From Lacunisphaera sp. (GTDB taxonomy: Bacteria > Verrucomicrobiota > Verrucomicrobiia > Opitutales > Opitutaceae): DNA of 64,000 nucleotides. The notes under the pieces were generated by a model. The model did no database searches, had not been told where the DNA came from, and saw only the letters and a program-made list of their open reading frames with translations. The stretch's first letter is position 1; every line of letters starts with the position of its first letter. Location of the stretch: the NCBI GenBank assembly GCA_029945445.1, contig JAQSCO010000060.1:310001-374000 (forward strand), given 5' to 3'. Of the stretch, positions 2,351 through 38,232 are shown one piece after another. The position numbers and the translations under genes were made by a program.

Positions 2351-2359
2351 GGGTTAGGC

Positions 2360-3091
2360 CTAGCTGCCGGGGCGCGCCGTCAGGCGATAGACCCGAAATT
2401 TGTCGACCTTCATGTGATTGCGCACGGTCCGCAGGCCGAACCAGCCCTCGCGCAAGGGGTGCTGGTCGGTGAGGTCAAAGACCACTTCACCGTCGCGGAG
2501 AAACTGCACCCGTTCGCCGTCGGCGATGAGCTGGATTATGATCGTCCGGTTGGGGACGTTCATGAATTTCGCGTCCAACAGTTCTCCCTTGCCCGGGTCG
2601 AGGGGCCGGGTGCCGTCACCGGGGTAGCGGCGGAAACGCGTGGTGACGTTGCCATTGGCACCGTAGCCCACGTAGTAGAGCCGCAGCGAATCATATTGGG
2701 CAAACTTGCCTGCGCGTTCGGCGCTGCCGGCAAAGAGGTTGTCGGGATGCTTCGGGTCGGTCGCCATCCAGAAACAATTCAGATCGCTGACCCGGTCGTT
2801 GGGCCCGCCCTGCTGGATCATGGTCGCTTCGTATTCGATCAGGACTGGGCCGGAGAGCTTCTGTCGGAACCAAACCGTGCAGCCGCCCTTGTCGTTGGGG
2901 CCGGCGCCGTCGTCGATTTCCAGCATTCCGTCCTTCAGCCGGGTGGTGCCGGCCGGCGTCTGCTCCACCACCCACTGCACCAGATCCTTTTCAAAGTCAT
3001 CGCTCGCGAGCAGCTCGCCGCGCCGGATATCCGCCGCGCAGCACGCGGAGACCAGGGCAAGCGAGGTCATGAGCAGGCAGCGACGGTTCAT
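2360..3091 (-). CDS. secreted DUF6250-type protein
   Basis: 243 residues from the ATG at 3091. The frame stays open further upstream, but this ATG overlaps the stop of the NHL gene as ATGA and is followed by a short lipoprotein-like or secretory leader (MNRRCLLMTSLALVSACCAA). The body is a jelly-roll-like beta protein with the pattern of the DUF6250 family: CTVWFRQKL, GPVLIEYEA, NDRVSDLNCFWMATDP, LRLYYVGYGANGN, TTRFRRYPGDGTRPL and WFGLRTVRNH. Family members recur in verrucomicrobial and Bacteroidota polysaccharide loci next to lyases and hydrolases, with no settled activity that I know of. Its place between the NHL protein and the PL6 lyase suggests glycan binding or lysis. Confidence 0.8.
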   Translation of the reverse strand: MNRRCLLMTSLALVSACCAADIRRGELLASDDFEKDLVQWVVEQTPAGTTRLKDGMLEIDDGAGPNDKGGCTVWFRQKLSGPVLIEYEATMIQQGGPNDRVSDLNCFWMATDPKHPDNLFAGSAERAGKFAQYDSLRLYYVGYGANGNVTTRFRRYPGDGTRPLDPGKGELLDAKFMNVPNRTIIIQLIADGERVQFLRDGEVVFDLTDQHPLREGWFGLRTVRNHMKVDKFRVYRLTARPGS

Positions 3092-4143
3092 GGTCGGACG
3101 CGGATGTATTTCTGGATCCGCCGCGGCTTCGGTTCGCCACCGTAGAGGTTGCCCTCGCGGTCGACGGCGACGAATTCCGCCCCCGTCCCCTCGACCACGC
3201 GGGGATCTCCCCACGGGTAGAGGATGAAGGCGTTGATCCAGCCGGTGCGCGCATCGCCGATGCGAATGCCCATTTCCCAGCCGGGGTTCTGCTCGTTGTC
3301 GGATTCCGAGTCCGGCACATAGATCTGCCCCTTGTCATCAAAGGTGATGCCGCTCGGCCGGCCGAACTGGGTCCACTGGGTGAGAAATTTTCCCTCCTGA
3401 TCAAAGAGCTGGACGCGATTGTTGCCCCGGTCGGCGACGAACACCCGGCCCTGCAGGTCGATCGCGATGGAATGCGGCATCCGGAACTCCCCGGGCGCGT
3501 AGCCGGTCCGGCCCCACTCCCTGATGAATTTTCCCTCCTTGGAGAATTTTACCACGCGGTTGTTGCCGGCATCGAAAGCGTGCCCGTCGGCGATGAAGAT
3601 GTCGCCGTTGGCCGCCACCGCGACATCGCTGGGGGAATCGAAATGATCGGGCCCGCTCCCGGCAACGCCGGGAGTGCCGAGGGTCAGCAGGACCTTCCCC
3701 GCCGGGCTGAACTTCACGACCTGATGCCCACGCTTGCCGGGCGGCGTGCGCTTGGCCGACACAGCGTCGGTGACCCACACATTGCCCTCGCGGTCGACCT
3801 CCAGGCCGTGGGGCCAGATGAACATTCCGCCGCCAAAGCTCCTGACGAGGTTGCCCTGCAGATCGAATTCCAGAACGGGATCCAGGTCGGAATCGAGGCA
3901 CTCGCTGCCGAACTTCTGCGGCTCGGCCGCCGTGCAGCGCACGATGACCCAGAGGTGCTGGCCGTCGGGATCAAGCTTGAGGTCACCTACCGCTCCCATG
4001 GGCCGGCCGGCCGGCAGCTTCGCCCAATTTTCCACCGCGCGATACGGATTCGGATAAGGCTGCGCGAAGGCCCCCAGCCCCAGGCCCAGCATGAGCACGA
4101 CGGCGCCAGCCAATTTCTTCAAGGGGGAGCCGGAGGGATGCAT
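3088..4143 (-). CDS. secreted NHL-repeat beta-propeller protein
   Basis: 351 residues from the ATG at 4143, which shares one base with the preceding sulfatase stop (TGATG). The frame extends 16 codons further upstream, inside the sulfatase gene, but the coupled ATG gives a clean signal peptide (LKKLAGAVVLMLGLGLGAFAQ). At least five NHL-like blades are visible, for example WPHGLEVDREGNVWVTDA, SPSDVAVAANGDIFIADG, MPHSIAIDLQGRVFVADR and FVAVDREGNLYG. NHL propellers act as enzymes or binding scaffolds, so the family alone does not give a function. Being buried in the polysaccharide operon and translationally coupled on both sides suggests an envelope role in the same pathway. Confidence 0.85.
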   Translation of the reverse strand: MHPSGSPLKKLAGAVVLMLGLGLGAFAQPYPNPYRAVENWAKLPAGRPMGAVGDLKLDPDGQHLWVIVRCTAAEPQKFGSECLDSDLDPVLEFDLQGNLVRSFGGGMFIWPHGLEVDREGNVWVTDAVSAKRTPPGKRGHQVVKFSPAGKVLLTLGTPGVAGSGPDHFDSPSDVAVAANGDIFIADGHAFDAGNNRVVKFSKEGKFIREWGRTGYAPGEFRMPHSIAIDLQGRVFVADRGNNRVQLFDQEGKFLTQWTQFGRPSGITFDDKGQIYVPDSESDNEQNPGWEMGIRIGDARTGWINAFILYPWGDPRVVEGTGAEFVAVDREGNLYGGEPKPRRIQKYIRVRP

Positions 4144-5678
4144 CAATTGTGACCGGCTACAGGCAGCGCGCCCTGCCAACCCGCGCGCCACTGCTTCATC
4201 AGCTTCTCGACGAGTTCGGCGTTGGCCGGCACCACCGCGATGTTGGTATTCTCCTGCGGGTCGAAAAATTCGTCGTAGAGCTCGACGGCATCGATCTTGG
4301 AGTGATCATCGCGGCCGACCCAGACCGTGAGGCGATAGCGGTCGGTGCGCATGGAGTAGCCCATGAGGGGCTTGCCGGAGTTCGGGCGCGGATACTGGCT
4401 GAAGGCGGCCTGCTTCCACGGACGCGCCGGGTTCTCGAGGAGCGGCTTGAAACTCAGGCCCTCGAGGTGCGACGGCAGCGAGAGGCCGGCGAGTTCCGCC
4501 AGCGTGGGATAGATGTCGACGAACTCGACGAACGAGCGGCTGTGCTCGCCGGCATGCTTCATGCCGGGCACCGAAAGGATGAGGGGCGCGTTGGTGTCGT
4601 TCTCGGTGTTGGTGTGCTTGCACCAGGCATCGTGCTCGCCGAGTTTCCAGCCGTGATCGCCCCAGAGGATCACGATGGTATTCTGGCGGAGGCCGAGGCG
4701 GTCCAGTTCGGCCAGCAGCTTGCCCACCTGGGCGTCGGTGTAGCTGATGGCGGCGTAGTAGCCGTGCTTGAGCTGACGGGCGAGGTCATCGGGAATCCGG
4801 CCCTCGGGGATGCCGTGATAGGCGCGCATCTCACTGCCGGGCAGAATGGCGTATTCGGGCGCGTCCTTCGGCCGGAAGGGATTGGGCGCGAGTTCAATCT
4901 TGGCCGGGTCGTAGAGATCCCAGTATTTCTTTGGCGAGACGAAAGGCAGGTGCGGCTTGATAAAGCCGACGGCGAGAAAGAAAGGCTCCTTCTTCTGGCT
5001 CATTTCCTGAAGGGTCTTGATCGCCAGCTCGGCGACCTTGCCGTCCTGGAACGTATTGTCCGGCACGTCGGCGCCCTCAAAGGCGGGGCCCCGGGTGTCA
5101 AACTTCGAGGCCGCGGTGTCGTCCTTGGCGCGGTCGCGGACGGGTTTGACGACCTTGCCCTTGGGCGGGCGGGCGGGGGCGACGTCGTCGGGTTCGACCT
5201 CGAACTGGCGCTGGTTGAGCTCGACGTTCTCCGGCAAGGCGTAAGCGACGGCCTTGGGCGTCTGCCACGGCGTGGACCAGGTGGGCGCGTCGTCATAGCC
5301 GCCGTGAAAAATCTTGCCCATGCCCTGGACAAAGTAGCCGTTGTTCTTGAAGTGCTGACCGAGCGTCACGACATCAGGCAGCGCCGCGCGGAAATGCGTG
5401 ACCAAGTCATACACCTTGGTCGTGTCAGGCCGCGTGCCGGTCATCAGGCTCGTGCGCGTCGGCGAGCAGACCGCCTGCTGGCAGTAGGCGTGCTCGAAGA
5501 CGACGCCGGTCGAGGCGAGGCGGTCGATGTTCGGGCTCTTGATGTAGTCCTTGCCGTAGCAGCCGAGCTCGGGCCGCAGGTCGTCCACGGCGATGAAAAG
5601 GATGTTGGGGCGGTCGGCGGCGTGGGCCAGCGCGGCGCCGCATAGGAGGGAGAGGCAGAAGGCGGGAATGGATTTCAT
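4143..5678 (-). CDS. secreted sulfatase, iduronate-2-sulfatase-like
   Basis: 511 residues with a signal peptide (MKSIPAFCLSLLCGAALAHA). RPNILFIAVDDLRPELGCYG carries the first metal ligands. AVCSPTRTSLMTG contains the formylglycine Cys at residue 71. Further hallmarks are FLAVGFIKPHLPF, the LWGDHGWKLGEH metal-site motif and the late CKHTNTENDTNAPLI stretch, all typical of the iduronate-2-sulfatase-like branch of type I sulfatases. The length is normal for that branch. An iduronate-type sulfatase beside a PL6 lyase and GH88 favours a glycosaminoglycan-like substrate. Specificity remains inference. It is translationally coupled to the downstream NHL gene. Confidence 0.9.
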   Translation of the reverse strand: MKSIPAFCLSLLCGAALAHAADRPNILFIAVDDLRPELGCYGKDYIKSPNIDRLASTGVVFEHAYCQQAVCSPTRTSLMTGTRPDTTKVYDLVTHFRAALPDVVTLGQHFKNNGYFVQGMGKIFHGGYDDAPTWSTPWQTPKAVAYALPENVELNQRQFEVEPDDVAPARPPKGKVVKPVRDRAKDDTAASKFDTRGPAFEGADVPDNTFQDGKVAELAIKTLQEMSQKKEPFFLAVGFIKPHLPFVSPKKYWDLYDPAKIELAPNPFRPKDAPEYAILPGSEMRAYHGIPEGRIPDDLARQLKHGYYAAISYTDAQVGKLLAELDRLGLRQNTIVILWGDHGWKLGEHDAWCKHTNTENDTNAPLILSVPGMKHAGEHSRSFVEFVDIYPTLAELAGLSLPSHLEGLSFKPLLENPARPWKQAAFSQYPRPNSGKPLMGYSMRTDRYRLTVWVGRDDHSKIDAVELYDEFFDPQENTNIAVVPANAELVEKLMKQWRAGWQGALPVAGHN

Positions 5679-5743
5679 GCGTCGAGAGGAAGAGGGCGCC
5701 CCCGGGCCAGGCCGGGTGCGCTGTGGTTGCGTGGGTTCTACGG

Positions 5744-7069
5744 TTACGGGTTTTTCTTCTTCGCCCGTTTCTCACTATTGCCGGCATGGCGGCCCGTGCC
5801 GTCGCCGTCGTCCAGGAAACCCCCGGCGGGATTGAGCTGATCGATTGCGCCTTGGAGTTTTGTCCGGGCGGCCAACGCCGCGGGATCCTTCGTTTCGACG
5901 GGCACGAGGGTCTCGGCCCAGGGCGCTCCGCTCAGGTCGAACAACTCCCCTTTCTCGGTGAGCTTGAAGTGAAGATCCGCCGCATACCACTTGCGGGCGA
6001 GCTCGATAAAAATCCACTCGCGCGGCGTGCCCTTTCCCCCGCGGAGTTGGGGGGCGAAGCTGTGCCCGTCGATGACCTTGCCGGCCGGTAGTTTGGCACC
6101 AGCGAGTTCAGCGAAAGTGGAGAAGAAGTCGCTGGAATCGATCAGCTGATTCGAGACCTGGCCCGGGGCAACTATGCCCGGCCAGTTCAACACAAAGGGC
6201 ACGCGGCTACCGCCCTCAAACATCGAGCCCTTGGCGCCGAGCAGTCGCCGGCCACCAACGGTCGAGGTTGGCGCGTAACCGTTGGCGGTGCCATTGTCGC
6301 CAAAATAGATAATCAGAGTCTTCTCGCGCAAGTGCTGGCGCTCCAACTCCGCCACCAGCTTGCCGACCAGTTTGTCCATATAGGAGATATTGTCCGCATA
6401 GTCGTCCTTGCCCCCCGGAGTTGTATCGGGTGTGGGCAGGATCTCACCGTGGATGTGCGACATGGAATAGTAGATGTAGAAGGGATCATCGTGATGCTTC
6501 GTGATGAAATCGACCAGATGCGCGTGCATCACGTCCGGCATGTATTCCTTGTCGCGCAGCGGCATGGTTTTCCCATTCAACTCGTAGGATTTGCCCTTTT
6601 CCTGGGTATTCCAGTAAATGCCACTGCCCTGGAACTTCAGGTAGTCGTCGAAGCCGAAGTCGGCCGGCCCAAGCGGCAGCTGGCCCCATTTGCCGATCGA
6701 GGCGGTGACATAGCCGGCCTGTTTCAGGACGACGGGCATCATCGTTTCGTCCTTCGGCCGGAAGCGGCCGGTGGAGTCCTGGTTCGTCGAGCCCGTGCGA
6801 AACACGTAGCGGCCCGTGAGGATCGTCGCGCGCGACGGCCCGCACAGCGGCTCGGCGTAGGCGTGGGTGAAGTTGATGCCACCCTTCGCGAGCGCGTCGA
6901 TGTGGGGCGTCTTATACCGGTCGGCGCCCGAGCAGGCGACGTCGCCGATGCCGACATCATCGCCAAGGATGAAGATGATGTTGGGCTTGGGGATGGCACT
7001 GCTCTCCGCCCGGGCACTGCCGGCCACAGTCAGGAGTCCGGCGAGCAGCAGGGTTTGGTATTTTTTCAT
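5744..7069 (-). CDS. secreted arylsulfatase
   Basis: 441 residues with a signal peptide (MKKYQTLLLAGLLTVAGSARA). PNIIFILGDDVGIGDV carries the first metal site. EPLCGPSRATILTG holds the modified Cys at residue 76. SIGKWGQL and IYFGDNGTANG are also present. Compared with most arylsulfatases the Lys-His pair after the active site is altered (GKWGQ where GKWH is usual), so one sulfate-binding histidine may be supplied elsewhere. The C-terminus ends in a strongly basic tail. It starts 10 bp behind the TonB receptor stop, and the next sulfatase follows after 65 bp, so co-transcription is likely. The substrate position is unknown. Confidence 0.9.
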   Translation of the reverse strand: MKKYQTLLLAGLLTVAGSARAESSAIPKPNIIFILGDDVGIGDVACSGADRYKTPHIDALAKGGINFTHAYAEPLCGPSRATILTGRYVFRTGSTNQDSTGRFRPKDETMMPVVLKQAGYVTASIGKWGQLPLGPADFGFDDYLKFQGSGIYWNTQEKGKSYELNGKTMPLRDKEYMPDVMHAHLVDFITKHHDDPFYIYYSMSHIHGEILPTPDTTPGGKDDYADNISYMDKLVGKLVAELERQHLREKTLIIYFGDNGTANGYAPTSTVGGRRLLGAKGSMFEGGSRVPFVLNWPGIVAPGQVSNQLIDSSDFFSTFAELAGAKLPAGKVIDGHSFAPQLRGGKGTPREWIFIELARKWYAADLHFKLTEKGELFDLSGAPWAETLVPVETKDPAALAARTKLQGAIDQLNPAGGFLDDGDGTGRHAGNSEKRAKKKNP

Positions 7070-7079
7070 GGGAGGATTC

Positions 7080-9830
7080 TTAGAATTTCACCGTAACTTC
7101 CATCTCGTATTGCGGGGGCATCACGTAGGCGTAGGTGTAGACAATCGAGCTGTCGGCCATGGTGGTGAAGCCGGTCTTGCGGACCTTGCCATTTTCCAGA
7201 TCCGTCAGGCCCCTCACCCCGGCGCGGACACGCACCTGCTGGCCCCAGACCTTCTGGTCACGCATGACATAGGCGTTCACGAAGTGAGTGGAGCCGCCGA
7301 CCAGATTGGCCCCGTTGCGCACGGCGATCAGGTAGTCATCGCGCCAGACGCCGTTGACGCCCACGCGGACGCCCTTGAGCGGTTTCCAGGCGGTGCTGGC
7401 GAAGGCGTAGTCGGCCACCCAGCTGGCGGACCACGGCGCGGCCCGGGCCCCGAGGGCGGCGGCGGGGACATCCAAGGTGTCGAGCAGGAGCTTGGCGTCA
7501 GTGCGGACGGTGGTTTCCGCGGGGTCATTGCGGGTGACGGCGGCGTCGTAGTAACCGCGGAAATTCTTCAGGTCCGGGGTGCTGGCGACCTTGGCCCGGC
7601 CAACCGTGAACCGCAGTTGGAGCCCCTTGACGGGGCGCGCCACCATCGTGAGATCAAAGCCCTTGGATTTCTCGACGGCGGTATAGTTGCGCGAGGCGCT
7701 GGCCGTGCCCGGTTCGCGGAACTTGTAGGCGGGATCGCCCGGCAGGATGTTGTTCGGGTTCATCAGATCCTCTGTTGCCGAGTCACTGAAGCTGATGACG
7801 TTATTCCAGGTGAGGACGACGTTCTCGCGGTCGATGTCGAACACGCCCAGCGTAAACGTGACCCGATCATTGAGCAGACTGCCCTTGAGGCCGATCTCCT
7901 TCGTGACGCCGGCGATGGGACCGATCGGGATGCGATCGAACGTGTTGACGCCCTGGAAGCGAAACGACTCGGAATAGATGCCATAGACGTTGATGTCCTT
8001 GGTCAGACGGTAGGTGAGGCCGCCGGTGTAGCTCGTGTTCGACAGGTGCAGGTTCAGGTCCTCCACGTAGTCGCCCGGCAGCGAATCCTTTTTCGCCGGG
8101 GCCGCGATGTCCTCGTTAAAGCGGCCGAATTTCCGGGTCGGCACATAGCTGTAGGAACGGCCCGAGTCGCGGCGGACGCCCAGCAGCGACATCAGGCGGC
8201 CCTTGAAATATGTGCCGCTGGCAGAAAGCGAGGTGGCGAAGGCCTGCCGCCATTCCGTACCGTCGGTGGCGTTGGAACCGGAGGCAAAGAAATGCAGGGG
8301 CACCATGTTGACCGCCGCGGTGACGGGCAGCTTGTCCGCCTCCATGCGGTCGAACAGGGCGCGCGAGTAAAAAGTCGGGTCGTCGAGGTAGATCCGCAGG
8401 CGACCGCGATCGGCGGTCGTGTTGATCGAGGTCGCAGTGCCGTTGTCAATCTTGGCAATGTTGAACCATTGGGTGCGGTAGTTGAGAACCTGATCCTCGC
8501 GATAATCGTAGGTCGCGACAATGAGCTGCTCCATCCAGCTCAGTTTATCGAACTTGTAGACCGCGCTGCCCCGGAATGCGTCGACCGTATTTGTGAAATA
8601 CTTCCGGTCGAGGGAGGAATCAATGTAGGGCCGGCCGTTGAGGTCGGTGCTGATGGTGGAATCGAAGCTGTTATCGTTGCGTTCCTCGGACTGGTATTGG
8701 CGGTTGTAGGCGAACTCGGTGCTGACGGGACCAAACTGCTGCTCGACCGTGGCGGAGAATGCGTGGAATGGACGCGAGTGGTTGTCGAATGAGCCCCGGA
8801 TGTTGTAGCGCTTCGGAAAGCCGTTGATGCGCTTGGTGCCGACGATGTTGCCAGCCGCGTCGCGCATCTTGACGTCGACAAAGCCGCCTTCGATCAGCGA
8901 CGGCTGGCCGCCGGCGGGATTGTTGGCGGAGCTGCGATCACCCGCGGGCAACGCGGTGGGAATGACCCACACGCTATCGGAGGTGTAATAGGTGCCGGCG
9001 GTGGCGAAGCTGAGGCCGCGCGCGGATTGCTCGCGCACGAAGATGCCCTGAAAGCCGCGAGCGCTGTCATAATCGCCCTGCTCGTATTCGAGGCGGATGG
9101 AGGTTTTTTTGGTGGCCTGCCAGAGGGCCGCCAGCGTCTCGCCCTTGAACTTGTAGGTGGAAGCATCCTGAAAGGTCCGGTCCTCGCGCCGGACGGCGTT
9201 GAAGCGCAGGGCGAGTCCGTTGCGGATCTTCCAGTTCAAATCAATCTGATACCGGTAGGCACCCTCGCTCTTGAAGATCGCGGTCGCTGTGCCGAAGGTT
9301 TTCATCAGGGGCCGCTTGGTGAAAGCTGCGCCGTTGCCGCCCGGCTCGACCTCGCCGAAGATCAGCGAGTTGGAGCCTTTGCCGAAATCAATGCGTTCGA
9401 TGTTGTAGGTGTCAGACGGGATATACCAGCGGAAGTAATTTCGGCTGATATTGTTGGTCTGACTGAGGCCGCGAAAGGCAAAGTTTCCCTTCTCGTTGTC
9501 GTTTTCCATGATGGGCGCGGCGTAGACATTCGCCACAAACCCCGCCACATCGTCGGCCATGCGCAGGCCGAGGTCGCCCATGAAATCCGAGGTGATCGCG
9601 TCAATGTTGACGGGCACGTCCTTGAGCGCCTGCTTGGTGCGGGTCGCCGAGAGGGTGTCATTCGCAGACCACCCCGTATCGGCGGTCACCACGAAGGGGG
9701 AGAGGACGACAGTTTCTCCCTCGGCGGGGGTGGCCGATGCGGTTGGTCCCTGCTGGGCTTGGCTGGACAGAACAACGGCGAAGCTTGCACTAAGCAAAAC
9801 TCCGCGGAGCAGTTTGGATGTGGTGTGCAT
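7080..9830 (-). CDS. TonB-dependent outer-membrane receptor, first gene of the polysaccharide operon
   Basis: 916 residues. A signal peptide is followed by VVLSPFVVTADTGW, a TonB-box-like segment at the mature N-terminus. A plug domain follows (TRTKQALKDVPVNIDAIT, then FAFRGLS and NIERIDFGKGSNSLIFG), and then a long beta-barrel ending in a terminal Phe (VTVKF), as outer-membrane barrels do. No SusD-like lipoprotein is found beside it. This is usual for Verrucomicrobiota and contrasts with Bacteroidota loci. As the first gene before sulfatases, NHL, DUF6250 and lyase genes, it most likely imports oligosaccharides released by the PL6 lyase. Confidence 0.92.
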   Translation of the reverse strand: MHTTSKLLRGVLLSASFAVVLSSQAQQGPTASATPAEGETVVLSPFVVTADTGWSANDTLSATRTKQALKDVPVNIDAITSDFMGDLGLRMADDVAGFVANVYAAPIMENDNEKGNFAFRGLSQTNNISRNYFRWYIPSDTYNIERIDFGKGSNSLIFGEVEPGGNGAAFTKRPLMKTFGTATAIFKSEGAYRYQIDLNWKIRNGLALRFNAVRREDRTFQDASTYKFKGETLAALWQATKKTSIRLEYEQGDYDSARGFQGIFVREQSARGLSFATAGTYYTSDSVWVIPTALPAGDRSSANNPAGGQPSLIEGGFVDVKMRDAAGNIVGTKRINGFPKRYNIRGSFDNHSRPFHAFSATVEQQFGPVSTEFAYNRQYQSEERNDNSFDSTISTDLNGRPYIDSSLDRKYFTNTVDAFRGSAVYKFDKLSWMEQLIVATYDYREDQVLNYRTQWFNIAKIDNGTATSINTTADRGRLRIYLDDPTFYSRALFDRMEADKLPVTAAVNMVPLHFFASGSNATDGTEWRQAFATSLSASGTYFKGRLMSLLGVRRDSGRSYSYVPTRKFGRFNEDIAAPAKKDSLPGDYVEDLNLHLSNTSYTGGLTYRLTKDINVYGIYSESFRFQGVNTFDRIPIGPIAGVTKEIGLKGSLLNDRVTFTLGVFDIDRENVVLTWNNVISFSDSATEDLMNPNNILPGDPAYKFREPGTASASRNYTAVEKSKGFDLTMVARPVKGLQLRFTVGRAKVASTPDLKNFRGYYDAAVTRNDPAETTVRTDAKLLLDTLDVPAAALGARAAPWSASWVADYAFASTAWKPLKGVRVGVNGVWRDDYLIAVRNGANLVGGSTHFVNAYVMRDQKVWGQQVRVRAGVRGLTDLENGKVRKTGFTTMADSSIVYTYAYVMPPQYEMEVTVKF

Positions 9831-10090
9831 GGGGGTAGATTTTTCGTTTGGGGTGGATGACTACGCAACGGCTACGGACTGGGACCGCTGAGCGGCATGA
9901 GTATGTATCTCGCAGCAGATTCCCTCTCTGCGCGAATTGCTGAAATAGCGGCAATATTTGCGCCCGCGATGACCGCCGCGATTGAGGGATGGCCCCGCAT
10001 CAGCGCCAACGCGGTATCACGCCGAGGATTGCTTAGGGTGCCGGCGTGGCGAAGTGGCCCTGGGATGGTTTGGTGCATCGTGAGCGTGCG
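9831..10090 (-). promoter_or_regulatory. presumed promoter region of the polysaccharide operon
   Basis: About 260 bp between the first TonB receptor start and the terminator of the second receptor gene, with no gene. It must carry the promoter of the seven-gene minus-strand operon. It lacks the 23-bp motif and the TATCTT box found at 12697-12745 and 14082-14131. An AT-rich imperfect dyad (GGCAATATTTGCG, about 9950-9962) is the only operator-like element I see. No Shine-Dalgarno sequence stands before the receptor ATG. Confidence 0.45.
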
Positions 10091-10091
10091 A

Positions 10092-10126
10092 GAAAAAAAG
10101 CCCGGCTCCACCCCTGGAGCCGGGCT
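10092..10126 (-). terminator. Rho-independent terminator of the second TonB receptor gene
   Basis: A perfect 12-bp stem (AGCCCGGCTCCA/TGGAGCCGGGCT, 10099-10126) with a CCCC loop. On the minus strand it is followed at once by a run of seven T. It lies about 70 bp after the receptor stop at 10198 and separates that gene from the operon starting at 9830. Confidence 0.92.
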
Positions 10127-10197
10127 AGTTCATTAACCTGACCTAGCCACTCCACCTAGCCGGCGGAGTGAAGGGATGAGCCATGGTGCGACTACAT

Positions 10198-12603
10198 TCA
10201 AAGCTTCGTGCCCTTGTGGCCGAGCGTGTAGGTGAAGAACACCGAGCGGTGGTCACCCTCCAGGATCCGGTTGGCACCCTGCGAGCCGGACTTGAAGTAG
10301 GCCTTGTCGAGGGCGTTGTTCACGTTGAGCGCGAGGGTGTGCGAGAAGCTGGACTTGCCCGGCAGCGTGTAGCGCAGGCCCAGGCTCCACAGGCTGAAGC
10401 CGGGAGCGTAGAGTTTCCATTGCTCGGTGGACCGGGTGACCGTGGGAACTCCGGCGGTGACCACGACGGTGTCACCCGCAATCGGGGTCTCCGTCGGCGT
10501 GTCGCCGACAAAGGTGACCCCGACATTGGCCGAGAAGCCCTTCAGCGCGCCGCGAACCGGGGCATACTTCAAGGACAAGCTGCCGTTGTAGTCCGGGACA
10601 TACTGCACCTTGCGGCCGATGGCCTGCGGATTGAGGGAGCCGAAATCCTTGTATTTCGAGTCAATCTTGCCGTAGCTGAAGAGGAAGGAGACTTCATCGG
10701 TCATCAGCCAGTTCACGTCTACTTCATAACCCTTGACCTTCTGGTCGCCGTCCCGGCGGTTGACGGTCAGGCCAGTGATCGGATCGATATCAGAGACCAC
10801 GACGTTTTGTCGGTTAATATCAAAGCCACTGACGGTGTAGTTGACGCGGCCGTCCATGACCGAACCCTTGAAGCCCACATCCCAGCCATCGGCGGTCTCG
10901 GCCTTGTAGGTCGGGTCGACGATCTCGATGGGGTTGTCGCCTTGGGCGATGAAGTAGCTCTGGCTGTAGTTAACGAAGAAACGGAAGTTCTCCTGAATCT
11001 TGTAGTTGAAGCCGACGTTGGGCTTGAAGGCCGAGACCTTCTTGTCGATCAGGTCGCCGGCGACGTAGCCGGGGACGAAGGGTTGAAAGCCCGCGGCAGC
11101 CGTCAGGTAATCCCGGTGACGGAAGTGGACGGAGTCATAGCGAGCTCCAACGTAGGCGAGGAGCCGGCCATCGAAGAGGGCGGATTGATGCCGTAACGAA
11201 GCCCCGTTCACCGTGGTGCGACGCTTCATCTTGCGGGAGGGCACGAAACCGTTGATCGGGTCCATCGGCTTGGTGAAATAGGCCACCGGGGCGCTGGGCA
11301 GCAGGGTGAGCGGATCCAGGGTGACCGTGCGGACGAGGTTCCAGGCGACAATGTCGGGGTTGGTGGCGGCCGCGTAGCCAATGGTCGGATCCCAGCGGAA
11401 GTAGTCGTTGAAATCGTAGGTCAACAGGGTGCGGTGCTCGATCGTCTTGTTGTTGGTCCAATAATGGGCCAGCAGGTCGGCCTGGAGGCCGCCACCGTCC
11501 TCGGTGATGCGGCCCCACTGGGGGACGGAGGTGTTGCTCCCGCGCTGGGAAGTAGGCGCAGCGCCGGTGGAGCGGTTGATGTTGATCGCCGACCAGCCCT
11601 GGTTCGAGTTGTAGTCATCGCGCCGGGCCATGTAGAGGTTGCCGGAGATGCGCGTGCTGAAGACCTCGCCGAGCTTCTTCTCATACATCGCCGTGTACGA
11701 GGTGTTGCCGCGGTCCAGCTGGCTGTTCAGACCGTAGTTGTTGACCTTGCCGAGGGCGAGGGCGTAGCCGATGGCCCGGTCGTCCGTCGTGTCCAATGTC
11801 CCCTTCTGGTCGATGATCACCGGGGCGGGGGCGAGCGGGGCGACGCGATTCTGGGCAAAGCTTTCCGCCATCAGGGTCAGTTTGGAGCCGTCGGCGAACA
11901 CATGATCGACGGCGAAGTAAGCTTCCTCGTTGCGGAACTTCGAGAGGTCGTCGCCGAACTCGCGCTTGTAGTTGCTGAGCGTGAGGACGTAGTTGGTCTT
12001 GCCCAGCGTGCCCGAGAAGAGCGGGCCGGTGGCCTCAAAGGTGACGCGCTCGGTGTTGTAGTCGCCGTAGTTCAGGGTCACTTTCTGATTGGCCTGGGCC
12101 TTGGGCATCTTGGAAATCATATTCATCATGCCGCCCGGAGAGGAGCGGCCGTAGATCGCGGCGCTGGAACCCTTGATGATTTCCATGCGGTCGATGTTGC
12201 TCGAGCCGTAGCGCCCCAGCCGGAAGAAGCCGTCGCGCAGCTGATTGGAGGAAAGGAAGCCACGCAGCTGGAACACGCCACCAACGTCGAGACCGGTGAA
12301 ACCGCTGATCTGCGTCAGGTTGTCGGCGAGTTCAAAAATGCCGAAATCCTCGAAAAACTCGCTCGTCATCACGTTGACCGTGTAGGGCAGATCGATGATG
12401 CGCGTCTTGACCCGGCTGCCGGTCATCGTCTCGGACGCGCCATAGCCGCGGTTGGGGTTGGCGTTCACCTGGAACGGCGAGAGTTCGATCGTCTCGTCCT
12501 TGGCCGGCGGAGTGGCCGGGGTTTGGGCAAAGGCAGGGACAGTAGCAAGGAGCAGCCCGAAGGCGGCCCGGACGAGGCAGTGGTGGGGTTGCGGTATTTT
12601 CAT
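10198..12603 (-). CDS. TonB-dependent receptor, siderophore-receptor-like architecture
   Basis: 801 residues with a signal peptide (FGLLLATVPAFAQ). IELSPFQVNANPNRGYG serves as a TonB-box-like segment. The plug carries SRVKTRIIDLPYTVNVMTSEF, VFQLRGF, NIDRMEIIKGSSAAIYGRSSPGG and MMNMISK, the pattern of the FhuA/siderophore-type TonB receptors. The barrel follows. An AGGA stands about 10 nt before the ATG. It has its own terminator (10092-10126) and a promoter that shares a motif with the GH88 gene. I therefore read it as part of the polysaccharide locus and not as an iron gene, although a siderophore role cannot be excluded. Confidence 0.88.
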   Translation of the reverse strand: MKIPQPHHCLVRAAFGLLLATVPAFAQTPATPPAKDETIELSPFQVNANPNRGYGASETMTGSRVKTRIIDLPYTVNVMTSEFFEDFGIFELADNLTQISGFTGLDVGGVFQLRGFLSSNQLRDGFFRLGRYGSSNIDRMEIIKGSSAAIYGRSSPGGMMNMISKMPKAQANQKVTLNYGDYNTERVTFEATGPLFSGTLGKTNYVLTLSNYKREFGDDLSKFRNEEAYFAVDHVFADGSKLTLMAESFAQNRVAPLAPAPVIIDQKGTLDTTDDRAIGYALALGKVNNYGLNSQLDRGNTSYTAMYEKKLGEVFSTRISGNLYMARRDDYNSNQGWSAININRSTGAAPTSQRGSNTSVPQWGRITEDGGGLQADLLAHYWTNNKTIEHRTLLTYDFNDYFRWDPTIGYAAATNPDIVAWNLVRTVTLDPLTLLPSAPVAYFTKPMDPINGFVPSRKMKRRTTVNGASLRHQSALFDGRLLAYVGARYDSVHFRHRDYLTAAAGFQPFVPGYVAGDLIDKKVSAFKPNVGFNYKIQENFRFFVNYSQSYFIAQGDNPIEIVDPTYKAETADGWDVGFKGSVMDGRVNYTVSGFDINRQNVVVSDIDPITGLTVNRRDGDQKVKGYEVDVNWLMTDEVSFLFSYGKIDSKYKDFGSLNPQAIGRKVQYVPDYNGSLSLKYAPVRGALKGFSANVGVTFVGDTPTETPIAGDTVVVTAGVPTVTRSTEQWKLYAPGFSLWSLGLRYTLPGKSSFSHTLALNVNNALDKAYFKSGSQGANRILEGDHRSVFFTYTLGHKGTKL

Positions 12604-12696
12604 TAGGTCAATTCCTGTCGGTCTCGGGTTGGGGGCGTGGACAGCCGCTAGGCCGGAAGCGGGGTGGCTCCGGGCAAGGTGGGGTATTGGTAAATC

Positions 12697-12745
12697 AAGA
12701 TAGCAGACGGCTGTGCTGATCGGTATCGGTCGTTTGTATGAGGCC
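12697..12745 (-). promoter_or_regulatory. putative promoter and activator site of the second TonB receptor
   Basis: On the minus strand a 23-bp motif (12723-12745; plus-strand core CGTTTGTATGAGGCC) is followed 20 nt later by TATCTT (12697-12702), a plausible -10 box about 95 bp before the receptor ATG. The same arrangement occurs before the GH88 gene (14082-14131), with 22 of 23 motif bases identical. Such conservation between non-coding regions implies a shared regulator. The response regulator at 17358-17987 is the obvious candidate. Confidence 0.7.
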
Positions 12746-12766
12746 TGTCCGGCTTCCTCAGGCCTC
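12740..12766. repeat. inverted repeat between GH88 gene and TonB receptor promoter
   Basis: GAGGCCTG and CAGGCCTC (8-bp perfect arms, 11-nt loop) lie just behind the GH88 stop and overlap the end of the 23-bp motif. It may act as a weak GH88 terminator, as there is no T run, or as an operator for the receptor promoter. Confidence 0.5.
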
Positions 12767-12793
12767 TCCCGGTGGCATTACTCAATTGTGCGC

Positions 12794-14014
12794 TCACGGC
12801 TTGAGGGTCTGGCGGGCCCGGAGCAGCGCCTCGAGGAAGTAGTAGTCGGCGTAGTTCAGGGGCACATCGACTTCGCTGTGATTGGGGAAATTTCCCGTGG
12901 CGTGCTTAAGCAGGAACCCGCCGTTTTCGCCGGGCTGGGCCAGGTAAGCCGGCGAAGCCAGCGCGCGGAGTTGCGCGCTCGCAAATGCGGTGTAGCGCGC
13001 GGCGGCCGGCGGGCTGCGCGTCAGGCCCGCCAGTTCGAAGAGCGCGGAGCTCATGATCGCGGCCGCCGCGGTATCGCGCGGGGCGTCCGGCTGGTTCGGT
13101 GCGTCAAAGTCCCAATAGGGCACCTTGTCGGCCGGCAGCCGGGGATGGTTCATGACAAAGGCGGCGACCTTTTCTGCCTGTTCAAGATACCGCACCTCCT
13201 TGGTTTCCCGATACATCATGGTGAAACCATAGAGCGCCCAGGCCTGGCCGCGCGCCCAGGCTGAATCGTCGCTCGCGCCCTGGTGGGTGACACGCCGGAG
13301 CACACGCCCGGTCGCGGTATCGTAATCCACCACGTGCACCGAGCTGCCGTCCGGGCGGAAATGATTCCGCAGCGTGGTGTCCGCGTGCGCGATGGCCACG
13401 GCCCGCCAGCGCGGTTCCCCCCCTTCCCTCACGGCGGACAGCAGCAACTCCAGGTTCATCATGTTGTCGATGATCACCGGAAAAGTGAACAGCTTCGGGT
13501 CACGGTCCCATGACTTGATGCAGCCAACGATGGGACTGAAGCGGCTGCTCAGCGATGCGGCCCCGACCGCCAAGACCTTCCGGTAGCCCGCGTCACCCGT
13601 GAGCCGGAGCCCGTTACCATAGCTGCAATTCAGGATGAACCCGACGTCGTGTGTCCGGTCATTGTGCTGCTCGTCCTCCAGCAGGGCCGTGAAACGCTCG
13701 GCCTCGCTCCGCCACTTCGGATCACCGGTTGCCTCGAAGAAATACCAGAGCGAGCCCGGAAAGAAGCCGACCGTCCAGTCGCGCTCGCGCACCATCACCA
13801 GTTTCCCGTTGCCGAGGGTGCGGGGCATCTTCCCGTCCTCCGGCAGATGGGCCAGCAGCCAGCGGTATTGCGCGGCCGAGGCCACGAGCGCCGTTTGCAC
13901 AACCGTGGACAGTGGCGGCTCGGCGGGCTGGGCGGTGACGGCAGCGCGCAACGCGGTGGAGAGGACGGCGGCCAGGGCCGCCGCTCGAATGAGGGAAGAG
14001 GGGAAACGGTGCAT
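12794..14014 (-). CDS. glycoside hydrolase family 88, unsaturated glucuronyl hydrolase
   Basis: 406 residues with a signal peptide (IRAAALAAVLSTALRAAVTA). The (alpha/alpha)6-barrel family is recognised from RERDWTVGFFPGSLWYF, RTHDVGFILNCSYGNG with the expected catalytic Asp123, IIDNMMNLELLL with Asp183, and SAWARGQAWALYGF. GH88 enzymes hydrate the 4,5-unsaturated uronate left at the non-reducing end by polysaccharide lyases. It therefore completes the PL6 reaction, giving a keto-uronate and a shorter oligosaccharide. It is a single gene with its own promoter, whose motif matches that of the second TonB receptor. Confidence 0.92.
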   Translation of the reverse strand: MHRFPSSLIRAAALAAVLSTALRAAVTAQPAEPPLSTVVQTALVASAAQYRWLLAHLPEDGKMPRTLGNGKLVMVRERDWTVGFFPGSLWYFFEATGDPKWRSEAERFTALLEDEQHNDRTHDVGFILNCSYGNGLRLTGDAGYRKVLAVGAASLSSRFSPIVGCIKSWDRDPKLFTFPVIIDNMMNLELLLSAVREGGEPRWRAVAIAHADTTLRNHFRPDGSSVHVVDYDTATGRVLRRVTHQGASDDSAWARGQAWALYGFTMMYRETKEVRYLEQAEKVAAFVMNHPRLPADKVPYWDFDAPNQPDAPRDTAAAAIMSSALFELAGLTRSPPAAARYTAFASAQLRALASPAYLAQPGENGGFLLKHATGNFPNHSEVDVPLNYADYYFLEALLRARQTLKP

Positions 14015-14081
14015 GAAGGGGACAGAAGACAGCCCATGGGTCCGGCATCACGTGGCCGGTCCAAGGCAAGGGTATGCTCGG

Positions 14082-14131
14082 AAGATAACATGACCGGGCG
14101 GCCACTGAGTATCGGGCGTTTGTATGAGGCC
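14082..14131 (-). promoter_or_regulatory. putative promoter and activator site of the GH88 gene
   Basis: The 23-bp motif (14109-14131, one base different from 12723-12745) precedes TATCTT (14082-14087, minus strand) by 21 nt and the GH88 ATG by about 95 bp. The same intergenic region must also serve the divergent histidine kinase gene, so the site could control both. Confidence 0.7.
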
Positions 14132-14218
14132 GGAGGTTCGACGAAACGGTGCCGGCGCGTTTTTCTCGCAATCCGACTTGAGCCGCGGCGGACCGGGGTG
14201 TTGGGTGTGCACACCCCG

Positions 14219-17200
14219 ATGCGTGCTCTGTCGAATTTTCCCGTGGCGTGCACCGCCGGCGCGGCCGCACCGCGGAAGAATGCCGGCCGGCCCGCTCGCC
14301 GACGGGCCCTGCTTCCGGCGGTCGCACTGGCGCTCATCGGACTGGGCGCGGTGTTGCAGGCCGCCACCCCCGCCACTTGGCGCGTCCAAGCCTGGCACGT
14401 GGACGACGGGCTGCCCGACAACCGCGTGGTCGGCCTGTCCCAGAATCCCGACGGCTATCTCTGCGTTGCCACCCGCGAAGGCCTCGTGCGCTTCAACGGC
14501 GCCGGCTTCGAAAGCCTCACGCTCGCGAACCCACGCGGCGCGGCGGGCAGCGGGATCCGCGCCCTGTTCGCCGATGCCCAGGGCAACCTGTGGCTGGACA
14601 TGTATCGCGAGACCATCGTGCAGGTTGGTAAGGATTCGGTGCGCGTGTTCACCGATAAGGAGGGCGTCCCGCTCGGCGAACTCACGAGTCTTGCCGAGGA
14701 CGCCGCCGGCCACCTCTGGCTGGAGATCGGCGGCACCACCTGCGAAGTGGCGGGCGACCGCCTCCGGCCGCTCACGCTGCCGCCCGCGGTCATTGTTTCC
14801 GACGACCGCGGCCGCGTCTGGTGTGCCCTCGCCCATCAACTCGGCGTCCTGGGCCCGGCAGGGTTCGAGCCCCGCTTCACCCTCGGCGAAGGCCCCGTCG
14901 TGCTCGCCCGCGCGCAGGCGGGCGGACTCTGGATTTGCGTCGGCGCCCAACTCCTTCGGTTGCGGGACGACGGGGCGCCCGAGTTGCGCCAGAGTCTCGC
15001 GCCGGGGATAAAACCGAAGTGCCTGCTGGAGGACCGGGCCGGCGCGGTCTGGATCGGGACGGTGGCCAACGGCCTGATGCGGTATGACGGCACGAGCGTG
15101 GAAAGGGTGGAAACCACCCACGCCGGAATCTCCTGCCTGCTGGAGGATCAAGAGGGCAACATCTGGGCCGGCACCACGGGTGGCGGCCTCAACCGGCTGC
15201 GTCCCCGGGTCATCGACATGATCGGCCCCGTCTCGGGCCAGCTGCTCGAATCGCTCGCGTCCGTCTGCGAGGATGCCGACGGCCTGCTTTGGGTCGTCAC
15301 CGCCAACGGGCAGCTCGCCCGGGGCAACGGCAGGGCATGGGACTTTGAGCAGTGGCCGGGCACCCGGGTCGCTTGCGTTGCCGCCGATCAGCTGGGCAAC
15401 CTTTGGGTCGGCACCCGGGGACAGGGTCTCTACCGGGAAAACCTGCGCACCGGCGTCCGGCAGCAATGGCTGAAGACGGACGGCCTGCCGAGCGATGCCG
15501 TCCGCGGACTCTACGTGGCGACGGACGGGGCCGCGTGGGTCGCAACCGCGGAGCCACCGGGCATCTGTCAAGTGCGAGCCGAGAAGGTTCAGACCATCAT
15601 CGTGCCGCCGAGTGTGCGCACGGTGCGCACGATCACCCAGGACGCGCATGGCGACATCTGGGTCGGCACTTCTGACGGGCAGGTCATGAAGGTGATCGGC
15701 GATGAGCTCGCCGCCGAGCAGACGCTGGCCGATAAGAGCCACTCCTCCGTGCGCAGCCTGCTCGCCACCGCGGATGGCAGCCTCTGGATCGGCTATGCGG
15801 GCCGTGGGGTCGGCTGGTTCAAGGATGGACGTCTCACCATGCTGTCCACCCGGAACGGTCTGCTGGACAATTCACTCTGGCATATTGTCACCGACCGCAG
15901 CGGGGCCATCTGGATGGCGGGCCCTCATGGCCTGAGTCGCAGCACTATGCACGACCTGCTCGGCATGACCGAGGGCAAGAAGACCATGCTCCACCCGACG
16001 TTGTTTGGCCTCGACGAGGGACTCGCGGGTTTCGTGGCGAATTACAACAGCGCGCCCGCGGTCTGCCGGACCCGTGACGGCCGGATCCTTTTTGCCACGA
16101 GCCAGGGCCTGCTCGTGGTGGATCCGGAAAATCTCCGGGACAATCCGCGTCCACCCCCGGTGATCCTGGAAAGAGTGCTCGTCGACGACCGCGTGGTGGC
16201 ATTGAGCAAGCACTGGTTTCCCTCGCGCTCCGACCTGGCCGAGGCTCCGCTTGATACGCAGGACGCCAGCGCCCACCTCCGCCTTTCCTCCGCCCACCGC
16301 AAACTCACGTTTGATTTCGCCGCCCTGAGCTATTCGGCGCCCGAGAATGTCCGCTTTCGCTATCGCCTGGAGGGCGTGGACGACTCGTGGACGGAAACCG
16401 GCACCGAACATACGGCACTCTATCCGCGCCTCTCGGCGGGAAACTACACGTTCCGGGTCGTGGCCTGTAACGACTCCGGAATCTGGAATGACCGCGGGGC
16501 GGCATTCGCGATCACGGTCAGTCCGTTTTTCTGGCAGACGTGGTGGTTCCGCATCGGTCTTCTGAGTGTGTTCACGGGCGCGGTGGTGTTGGTGGTGCGG
16601 CTGATTTCGTTCCGCCGTCTGCGCCGGAAGCTGCAATTGGCGGAACAACAGGCCGCGCTTTCACAGGAACGCGCGCGGATTGCCCGGGACATTCATGACG
16701 ACCTGGGCGGCAGCCTGTCCCATATCAAACTGCTGGGTGAACTGGCGCTCCGCGAACCCGCCGCCCCCGGCACGGCCAACGACTCCCTCGCGACCATCAC
16801 GACCATTGCGGTGCAGATGCTGAAGTCGCTCGATGAGATAGTCTGGGCGATCAATTCCCGGAATGACAGCCTGTCCAACCTCATCAGCTACCTCGGGCAG
16901 CATGCCTTGGAGTTCCTGCGTTCCGCTGGCATCCGGTGCGAGGTCAGCCTGCCGGAAAATCCGCCGGAGCTGGAGGTGACCTCGGCGGTGCGCCACCACA
17001 TCTTCCTCGCGGTGAAGGAGGCCCTGACCAACGTGGTGCGCCATGCGCAGGCCGGCGCGGTCCGCCTGGAGATTGCAGTCGGCCCGGATCTGCTGCAGAT
17101 CGGGATCACGGACGATGGCCGCGGATTCGAGTCACAGCCGGCGAACGCCGAGAGCGACGGACTGCGGAACATGCGCAAGCGCATGGCGGCGGTGGGTGGG

Positions 17201-18035: not shown

Positions 18036-18704
18036 TCAAGCGGCCTGGTTCTGAGGCCGGGTCGCCCGCTGCAGGGTGTGGACGAACATTTTCAGCTTGG
18101 CCGGGCTCTTGACCCCCGGCGACTGCTCCACGCCGCTGTTCACATCGATCCAGGGCGCGCCGGTCGCGGTTATCGCCCGCCCAATATTTTCCGGATCCAA
18201 ACCGCCGGTCAAAATCCACTGCTTGTCGGGATGGCCCTCATGGTGGCGTTTGAACTTCGTCCAATCGCAGGCCGGGCCGCTGCCCCCCGCTTTGTCGGCC
18301 TGGAAGGGATCCAGCAGGAAAGTGTCGGCCAGCGGCAGCCATTCCGGATCGACATCCATTCCGGCGGGGAGCCGCGGCGCCAGCCAGAGACGCTGCGGCC
18401 CGATGATTTGGGAGCAGCGGAAGAGAAACGGCATCGGCGTATCCGCCGTGAAATTCACTTGGAAATAATCGAAGTCCTGCCCGACGAGTTCATTCAGGTC
18501 CGCCGCCGAGGGCTTGATGCACACCGCCACCCGCTTGACGTGAGGCAGGCGGCCGTGCATGGCCTGATACTGGGCGAGCGGGGCATGGCGCGGAGACCGC
18601 GGATAGATATGAAAACCGAGACAGTCGGCGCCGCTGGCGGCGGCCGCATCGGCATCGCCCGGCGAGGTGATGCCGCAAACCTTGATTTTGATTCCGTTGA
18701 TCAT
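18036..18704 (-). CDS. TrpF-like phosphoribosylanthranilate isomerase, divergent copy 1
   Basis: 222 residues from the ATG at 18704, chosen because it aligns with the start of the neighbouring paralogue (MINGIKIKVCGIT). Catalytic features of TrpF are kept: KVCGIT with the general-base Cys, IYPRSPR, LLDPF with the general-acid Asp, GGSG and ILTGGL. The normally near-invariant QLHG strand is replaced by FQVNF, and the usual DVSSGVE reads DVNSGVE. The enzyme isomerises phosphoribosylanthranilate in tryptophan synthesis. This copy is the more diverged of the pair, and no other trp gene is visible, so another sugar-phosphate role is possible. Confidence 0.75.
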   Translation of the reverse strand: MINGIKIKVCGITSPGDADAAAASGADCLGFHIYPRSPRHAPLAQYQAMHGRLPHVKRVAVCIKPSAADLNELVGQDFDYFQVNFTADTPMPFLFRCSQIIGPQRLWLAPRLPAGMDVDPEWLPLADTFLLDPFQADKAGGSGPACDWTKFKRHHEGHPDKQWILTGGLDPENIGRAITATGAPWIDVNSGVEQSPGVKSPAKLKMFVHTLQRATRPQNQAA

Positions 18705-18850
18705 CTTTGGCGATGGACAATCTACGCGCTGTCCGTCCGGCACGATAGTGCTAAAGCTCTTTCCGGGGTAAAATTCCAATCAATCATCCCCGGCCCAGGC
18801 CCCCTGGACCGCTCCATGGTGCATCGGGTGCGAAGACCAGGAACTGTGCC

Positions 18851-19522
18851 CTAGCTGTAAGACGGATTCTCGTGCTTTGTCGCGTTGTGGAGCGAGAGCA
18901 CGAAGGCCTGCAGCTTCGCCGGGCTCTTGATGCCCGGCGCCTGTTCCACGCCGCTGTTCACGTCGAGCCAGCGCGCGCCGGTGGCCGTCACGGCCTCGGC
19001 GACATTCGAGTGATTGAGACCGCCGGACAAAATCCAGTGCTTCGTCGGATTGGCGTCCTTGTGCTGTTTGAATTTGGCCCAGTCACCTACTTCACCAGTG
19101 CCCCCGGGCTTGTCCGGATGGAAAGTGTCGAGGACAAACGTCTCGGCGAGCGGCACCAACTCGGGATAGACGTTGACGCCGGGCGGCAGGCGCGGCGCGA
19201 GCCAGAGCTTGGCACTGCCGACCGCTTCGGCCCACCCATTGATGACGGCGCACGGCGTCTGCGGGTTGAAATGGATCTGAAAAAAATCGAACCCCATCTC
19301 GATCTGCAGGACGAGCTCGGCCCGTGTCGGCTCGACCGACACGGCGACCTGCTTGCGCGGCGGCAGCCGCTCCTTCATCGCGAGCATCTGCGGCTTGGAG
19401 ACATAGCGCGGGGATTTCGGATAAAAGATAAACCCGAGGTAATCGGCGCCGACCGCATCGGCCGCGTCGGCATCCACCAGCGAGGTGATGCCGCAGACTT
19501 TTAATCTGATGCCGTTGATCAT
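18851..19522 (-). CDS. trpF: TrpF-like phosphoribosylanthranilate isomerase, copy 2
   Basis: 223 residues, same start motif as copy 1 (MINGIRLKVCGIT). FIFYPKSPR, FVLDTF with the acid Asp, GGTG, DW and ILSGGLNHSNV are closer to classic TrpF than in copy 1. The QLHG strand is FQIHF and the phosphate-loop region reads DVNSGVEQAPGIKS. The copies share unusual stretches such as LWLAPRLP and NSGVEQ-PG-KSPAKL, so they arose by tandem duplication and then diverged. A 146-bp spacer separates them. This copy is the better candidate for the working tryptophan enzyme. Confidence 0.8.
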   Translation of the reverse strand: MINGIRLKVCGITSLVDADAADAVGADYLGFIFYPKSPRYVSKPQMLAMKERLPPRKQVAVSVEPTRAELVLQIEMGFDFFQIHFNPQTPCAVINGWAEAVGSAKLWLAPRLPPGVNVYPELVPLAETFVLDTFHPDKPGGTGEVGDWAKFKQHKDANPTKHWILSGGLNHSNVAEAVTATGARWLDVNSGVEQAPGIKSPAKLQAFVLSLHNATKHENPSYS

Positions 19523-37684: not shown

Positions 37685-38232
37685 GGCCGGTTGGCGGAGA
37701 GATTGTCCGCATTGGCCTGCGGTGCAGGATCGCTGAGGCCGCCGGGCAGCAGGGCGGCCGAGTCCCTGCCGTCGGGCCCGATTGAATAGAGAACATATCC
37801 CGGATTCGTCCAAGCCGACGGAGGCGTCTTATAGGCGTAGAGGTAAACCTGGCCCCAGGGATCGATCAGCACGGCGGAAGTATCACTGAATGGATCACGC
37901 GAACCGGCAGTCGTGAACCGGGCGACTTCGAGCAACGGGCGGCCGGTGATGACAGTATTGGTCGGTCCGCGCTTGCCGATCAGGGATTGGAGCAGCCGGG
38001 CCTCATCGTCGGTCTGCGGATAATCGCCGTAGGCACGCCGGTAACTCTCAAGCGCCGCCGAGAGCGCCGCGAGTTCGGCCCTGGTCCGGGCAATCGTGGC
38101 CGTCTCCGCGGCGCGCCGGGCCGCCCCGAGCACAAGGCCTGCGAGGATCGCGCTAAGCGAGATGACGGCAAGTAACTCGAGCAGCGTGAAAGCAGCTCGA
38201 TTGCGGGTGGCCCCTGAGGGAGCCGTGGGCAT
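37681..38232 (-). CDS. GspG-like major pseudopilin, first gene of the operon
   Basis: 183 residues: NRAAFTLLELLAVISLSAILAGLVLG is the prepilin segment. ALESYRRAYGDYPQTDDEARLL and DPWGQVYLYAYKTP are hallmarks of GspG, where the Asp/Gly-rich C-terminal loop binds calcium (GPDGRDS). It begins six consecutive genes on the minus strand with no secretin, platform or ATPase gene among them. Those functions may come from the pil genes at 50785-56562 or from elsewhere. It starts 17 bp after the acetyl-CoA synthetase stop. Confidence 0.85.
   Translation of the reverse strand: MPTAPSGATRNRAAFTLLELLAVISLSAILAGLVLGAARRAAETATIARTRAELAALSAALESYRRAYGDYPQTDDEARLLQSLIGKRGPTNTVITGRPLLEVARFTTAGSRDPFSDTSAVLIDPWGQVYLYAYKTPPSAWTNPGYVLYSIGPDGRDSAALLPGGLSDPAPQANADNLSANRP

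Follow-up and report, generated by a model that had tools for sequence, protein, structure and literature searches.

A 23-bp element shared by two promoters of a Lacunisphaera polysaccharide locus as a probable operator of the neighbouring NarL/LuxR-type regulator

What reads a 23-bp element that two promoters of the same polysaccharide locus have in common? The question is raised by a 64,000-nt stretch of a Lacunisphaera genome (Opitutaceae, Verrucomicrobiota; assembly GCA_029945445.1, contig JAQSCO010000060.1, positions 310,001 to 374,000), here called the window, in which the element precedes the second of two TonB-dependent receptor genes and a GH88-family gene. The initial annotation proposed a regulon read by the propeller kinase and LuxR-type regulator encoded next to these genes, and our sequence comparisons largely support that interpretation. 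We are fairly confident that the adjacent response regulator, of the NarL/LuxR type, uses the element as its operator; it would act as a class-II activator on both genes, with the propeller kinase probably sensing a product of a sulfated polysaccharide. The site itself, its co-occurrence with orthologues of the regulator, its fixed distance to a -10 hexamer and its change with the recognition helix were all computed here.

The two elements (Table 1) are identical at 22 of 23 bases, and TATCTT follows after a gap of 20 nt at site 1 and 21 nt at site 2; on recheck the coordinates, identity and gaps in the initial annotation proved exact. Its statement that both elements lie about 95 bp before the start codon holds for the GH88 gene (95 bp from the near end of the element to the ATG at 14014), while the distance is 120 bp for the TonB receptor (ATG at 12603). 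TATCTT itself is found 94 bp before the start of the TonB receptor and 68 bp before that of GH88. At up to 3 mismatches the element had no match in 100 dinucleotide shuffles of the window, and its own genome (4.17 Mb, 66 contigs) contains only these two copies, 4.6 and 3.2 kb from the regulator gene. A repeat dispersed over the genome, which the initial annotation had named as the finding that would speak against its claim, is excluded by the lack of a third copy, and a mobile element was rejected for the same reason. The 60 bases immediately upstream agree at only 19 positions, so that the likeness is limited to the site and the hexamer, and a duplicated promoter region was rejected. This bears out the suggestion that the likeness of these promoters, whose downstream genes are unrelated, is regulatory.

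Table 1. Coordinates in the window of the candidate operators, the hexamers and the genes around them.
Feature	Position	Strand	Remarks
Operator 1 (candidate)	12723-12745	-	GTATCGGTCGTTTGTATGAGGCC; precedes second TonB receptor; 17-bp core 12725-12741, TCATACAAACGACCGAT
Operator 2 (candidate)	14109-14131	-	GTATCGGGCGTTTGTATGAGGCC; precedes GH88, in the divergent region between GH88 and kinase; 17-bp core 14111-14127, TCATACAAACGCCCGAT
Hexamer 1, TATCTT	12697-12702	-	AAGATA on the plus strand; preceded by TGC; starts 31 nt from dyad centre
Hexamer 2, TATCTT	14082-14087	-	AAGATA on the plus strand; preceded by TGT; starts 32 nt from dyad centre
Second TonB-dependent receptor	10198-12603	-	PF00593 (2.5e-32), PF07715; predicted target of operator 1
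GH88-family hydrolase	12794-14014	-	PF07470 (2.7e-08); predicted target of operator 2
Propeller histidine kinase, 1021 aa	14219-17284	+	Reg_prop (3.2e-39), Y_Y_Y (2.4e-16), HisKA_3, HATPase_c; likely sensor
NarL/LuxR-type response regulator, 209 aa	17358-17987	+	PF00072 (1.9e-22), PF00196 (GerE, 7.8e-19); likely reader of the operators
Terminator-like stem, 12 pairs and T tail	10099-10126	-	Strong; parts second TonB receptor from the operon starting at 9830
Operon without operator	806-9830	-	TonB receptor 1, two sulfatases, NHL-propeller protein, DUF6250 protein, chondroitinase-B/PL6-like protein

The initial annotation expected enrichment of the motif across the genome. Our search did not show this and returned the two sites only, which means that the regulon is local. 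A genome-wide regulon was rejected, as the 17-bp core at up to 3 mismatches has three extra matches in the whole genome against 2 for a reversed control, none of them with TAnnnT at 31-32 nt when inspected by eye. The same inspection of the plus strand near the element, toward the kinase, found no TAnnnT at the proper distance, and a site directed at the kinase gene was rejected on this ground.

The element is a lopsided dyad, TCATAC-AAAC-GACCGAT, which we refer to as class A. The initial annotation took TATCTT for a second regulatory box. We rejected this, as relatives keep TAnnnT rather than the exact letters, and TATCTT is best read as the -10 box of the promoter. In six of the eight class-A sites found in this study TAnnnT starts 31-32 nt from the core centre, with TATCTT at both window sites and in genome G208, TACTCT in G025, and TACTCT and TAAGGT in G066. 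Three-offset control windows give a mean of 0.23 of the 8 sites, and at most 1. Of the six sites outside the window, four share its spacing (P about 1e-5). Both window hexamers are moreover preceded by TGn. With the hexamer as the -10 box and the start site inferred from it, the core centre would fall near -43.5/-44.5, which is a class-II activator position by this geometry (site centre near -41 to -46 at a fixed distance from the -10). For comparison, class-II CRP sites are centred at -41.5 and the NarL site of yeaR at -43.5.

Among the 252 genomes of the family that were searched, own genome included, an orthologue of the regulator (at least 70% identity) is present in six, namely the own genome and five others at 70-75% identity; the next relative is at 58%. 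An order-wide search of 372 sampled genomes (E <= 1e-70) returned four genomes, all of the same family. All six orthologue genomes carry the core (TCATACAA/ACGACCGAT, the stroke marking the centre) at up to 3 mismatches, placed before TonB-receptor, sulfatase, lyase or GH88 genes. At up to 1 mismatch the core TCATACAAACGMCCGAT has 13 matches across the 252 genomes, seven of them in orthologue genomes (two in the own genome G000, one each in G208, G025 and G014, two in G066). It is thus found in 5/6 genomes with the orthologue and in 6/246 without (Fisher p=3e-7, uncorrected for kinship). This supports the neighbouring kinase/regulator pair as the likely reader, as initially annotated. Six of these seven matches adjoin the regulator or sit in its locus. 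The seventh is on another contig of G066, 0.9 kb from the contig end and 126 nt (centre to ATG) before a sulfatase gene whose product is 75% identical to the window's sulfatase at 5744-7069. In G038, the sixth orthologue genome, the site precedes a sulfatase 74% identical to that at 4143-5678. An unsupervised comparison of intergenic words between the window and the orthologue loci returned the same element in 4/5 comparisons; in the fifth (L042) it was hidden by a spurious open reading frame called across the site.

The genes behind the core vary between these genomes. In G208 they are an N-terminal piece of the second TonB receptor, the first TonB receptor, two sulfatases, two alginate-lyase-family genes (PF05426, CAZy family PL5) and GH88, and in G025 a sulfatase followed by a row with the second TonB receptor, further sulfatases, a DUF6250 relative and a PL6-like protein. 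G066 has a TonB receptor and, on the other contig, the sulfatase, G038 has a sulfatase, and G014 has an alginate-lyase-family gene and then GH88. The 4.9-kb contig of G014 has regulator, core and GH88 gene in common with the window, the kinase being cut off by the contig end.

We further observed that in G208 the frame directly after the operator (L042:4466-4837, contig C195) encodes 123 aa which match the window's second TonB receptor over its residues 17-101 (65% identity), and that the first TonB receptor begins 77 bp past this frame. Most of the second receptor appears to have been lost. Unless the assembly is at fault, the promoter left behind may have come to drive the genes that in the window form the operon without an operator.

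How might the system work? The regulator has the NarL/FixJ domain plan of a receiver and a C-terminal GerE/LuxR helix-turn-helix, and it aligns with NarL, VraR and DevR chains over nearly its full length. The kinase, counted from the in-frame ATG at 14219 that was picked by reading the frame, would probably sense a breakdown product of a sulfated polysaccharide outside the inner membrane and would then phosphorylate the regulator. The COG3292 sensor described among the hybrid two-component systems (HTCS) of Bacteroides is likewise made of propeller repeats. Presumably as a dimer, the regulator would bind the lopsided dyad TCATAC-AA/AC-GACCGAT (stroke at the centre, about -43.5/-44.5) and, as a class-II activator, recruit RNA polymerase to a promoter with a TGn-TATCTT -10 and no recognisable -35, which would turn on both predicted targets, the second TonB receptor and GH88. 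In this scheme the binding, the phosphorylation, the activation in place of repression and the ligand are what we infer.

If the regulator reads the element, one may ask whether relatives with another recognition helix have another site. The class-A regulators, that is the group of the window's regulator, have the helix MSTVRTHIH. Class B consists of regulators L074-L079 of other Verrucomicrobiota (63-66% identical, helix LSTVRAHLH) and of L043 from within the family (57-58%, LSTVRTHLH). In the class-B loci the window's core was not found at up to 3 mismatches; what they have in common is the dyad TAGAAC-RAAY-GTTC(A/T)A, many copies of which have the same ACAAACG centre. Paralogues with the helix ETVRTHV(N/T)H form class C, with the common dyad CATCCCC-N6-GGGGATG. 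Over 45 loci, the exact class-B dyad GAACRAAYGTTC (GAAC-RAAY-GTTC) has 19 copies in 7/7 class-B loci and none in the other 38, and the exact class-C dyad ATCCCC-N6-GGGGAT has 14 copies in 8/12 class-C loci and none in the other 33; the remaining four class-C loci contain copies with 1 mismatch. The class labels B and C were set by the helix and by the sites found, so this block pattern is not blind, except for L102, which was fetched later and whose dyads came from a spacing-based dyad search. The tallies leave out L081, whose regulator is cut off, L082 and L083 (29-33% identity, Paenibacillus and Cohnella), the short loci L012-L034 (those of other clades were scanned for class C only) and the duplicate ids of the same contigs (L001-L011, L036-L041, L055-L065 and L067); L066 is counted for sites and not as a regulator locus.

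The dyad centre is 4 bp in classes A and B and 6 bp in class C. TAnnnT lies 30-32 nt from the centre on at least one side in 7/13 class-B and 15/17 class-C sites; control windows gave a mean of 0.3-0.35 and never more than 2. A tree of 46 regulators supports class A as a group (100/100), as it does A together with B and L080 (100/98) and class C (99/97); class B alone is without support as a group. Twenty other regulators (L080, L084-L101 and L103) belong to none of the three classes. A search of their loci for dyads, which covered all but L080, yielded class-C-like dyads in L086 and in L100, a variant in L090, and nothing consistent elsewhere in this set. The L090 variant (L090:10391, contig C25 of G006) is ATCCTTA-GGTC-TGAGGAT, 31 nt before TAGACT, and the regulator there has the helix TTVCTHLGN. 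It possibly represents a further operator class, or chance. Another observation concerns L076:10693-11637, L076:12032-14717 and L077:11695-17052, in other Verrucomicrobiota: here class-B dyads precede genes for a protein with an N-methylation motif (pilin-like) and for PATR-repeat surface proteins, different from the classic polysaccharide enzymes.

The window's own genome appears to run two such systems in parallel, with separate sets of local sites. A class-C regulator is encoded at 76.6 kb of contig C60, and four class-C dyads (at most 1 mismatch in 14 fixed bases) are found at 37.9-72.4 kb of the same contig. All four have TAnnnT at exactly 31 nt on one side. On that side a frame of at least 400 codons lies within 200 nt for 3/4, and a short frame for the dyad at 37948. 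A further site with 2 mismatches at 72529 has TATTAT at 31 nt and precedes a GH92 gene. Two 2-mismatch matches outside the C60 cluster were inspected and neither has a -10 hexamer; a class-B site was not found in this genome at up to 3 mismatches. The class-C set (G000:C60:37948-72548), which lies near a second kinase/regulator pair, precedes the GH92 gene and secreted sulfatase-like proteins, the latter judged by their frame start only.

We think it likely that kinase/NarL-type pairs in Verrucomicrobiota follow an operator code not recorded so far, in which clade-specific dyads (TCATAC-AAAC-GACCGAT, TAGAAC-RAAY-GTTC(A/T)A and CATCCCC-N6-GGGGATG) would mark the pair's own local promoters. The arms would follow the recognition helix, the distance from centre to -10 would be fixed at 30-32 nt, and at least two insulated systems (A and C) would exist side by side in the window's genome.

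Several observations weigh against the operator reading or against a clean separation of the classes. The arms of the class-A dyad agree at only 3/7 positions (by eye), against near-perfect dyads in the relatives. The core of G038 has 3 mismatches, and the sites of G014 and G038 are without TAnnnT at 30-32 nt. The six core matches at up to 1 mismatch in genomes without the orthologue (G064, G005, G098, G029, G144 and G123) show no TAnnnT at 31-32 nt by eye, and we take them as chance; a reversed control pattern gave only 1 match, and so not every one of them may be chance. When the patterns are loosened, the classes also overlap a little. Core A at up to 3 mismatches turned up in two class-C loci, L045 and L051, with one site in each; L046, L049 and L051 each have a single class-B-like dyad, and the class-B locus L074 has a class-C dyad with 1 mismatch. 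In the own genome the class-C pattern at up to 2 mismatches has 42 places, against 10 for the control. Finally, a consensus scan of 9700-14300 found no σ70-type -35/-10 pair, which against a shuffle mean of 0.8 is weak evidence for a missing -35.

Other explanations of the same sites have to be considered. The regulator could read them and repress, or act dually, in which case it would occupy the -35 region as long as no polysaccharide is sensed. By its geometry the site would extend from about -33 to about -55, a position from which a repressor could also block polymerase. We consider this unlikely, as the spacing to the -10 varies by no more than 1-2 nt across three operator classes, which contact by an activator needs and a repressor does not, and the lack of a -35-like hexamer is a further, weak point. 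A fixed distance is also what one would see between two promoter boxes, and the element might accordingly be part of an alternative-sigma-factor promoter, or the site of another regulator of the locus. The 17-bp core, ending more than 20 nt from the hexamer, is too long and too far away for a sigma -35 box as these are usually spaced, and we regard both options together as very improbable. As for another regulator, the core occurs together with the regulator orthologue, and relatives with other helices have other dyads; this argument is not strict for a linked factor, since co-occurrence in each genome was not examined for other genes in the neighbourhood of the sites. That there are just two copies, 1.4 kb apart, might suggest that the likeness arose by chance, that the element is a dispersed repeat, or that a piece of promoter was duplicated. 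To these we give practically no credence: shuffles, genome search and unlike flanks speak against them, and the same core is present in five other genomes with an orthologous regulator. Activation by the neighbouring regulator remains the explanation that we prefer.

This activation would not extend to the whole locus. The promoter of the operon starting at 9830 (9801-10198) matches the 17-bp core with 7 mismatches at best, the same result that 2000 shuffles gave most often, and a core there was rejected. The motif had been reported as absent from this operon, and that is borne out. The operon, in which we identified six genes (seven in the initial annotation), would be driven by other means or by read-through, given the missing core and the terminator-like stem. 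As it lacks the core and is separated from the TonB gene by the stem, our data agree with the proposed split regulon. Just past the regulator are two adjacent TrpF-family genes (PRAI, 9.9e-24 and 1.9e-28) on the minus strand, at 18036-18779 and 18851-19522.

NarL is one of the closest known systems. It acts through inverted repeats near -35, with a dyad operator at -45.5, by the -35 region, in the E. coli ogt promoter and activation from a site just upstream of -35 in yeaR (PMC7419079). By the geometry of its sequences the present system would work as NarL does at these simple promoters, with a two-component regulator of the same fold family and a dyad near the -35 region. Unlike the NarL operator of two 7-bp inverted elements with a 2-bp spacer (7-2-7), classes A, B and C have centres of 4 or 6 bp and other letters, and class A is lopsided; none of them fits the NarL definition. 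NarL is moreover global and driven by nitrate, whereas the regulons here are local, among polysaccharide genes. The HTCS of Bacteroides resemble our system in that a periplasmic sensor regulates adjacent polysaccharide genes via a local motif found by comparative genomics; their motifs are direct repeats read by AraC-type domains (PMC3878776). Here too a propeller-type sensor stands beside polysaccharide genes (sulfatases, a PL6-like protein and GH88), but sensor, kinase, receiver and AraC-type domain are not joined in one protein: the kinase and the regulator are separate, the DNA-binding domain is of the LuxR type (GerE), and the sites are dyads. The TonB-linked carbohydrate-utilization loci of freshwater Verrucomicrobia also have TonB receptor genes clustered with hydrolases, and sulfatases are numerous; in contrast to our locus no operator came to light for them, and the word promoter occurs 0 times in the main text of that study (PMC5615132).

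In our searches, which covered open-licence PMC papers, we found no report of operators that serve the regulators of polysaccharide loci in Verrucomicrobiota. If an operator can be read and its distance to the -10 is fixed, one could predict which genes are under a given sensor, and in uncultured genomes such predictions would sort unknown enzymes according to their substrate. Natural relatives in which the operator changes with the recognition helix offer ready material for tests of DNA choice by NarL-type regulators. The same natural set would test what keeps duplicated two-component systems insulated.
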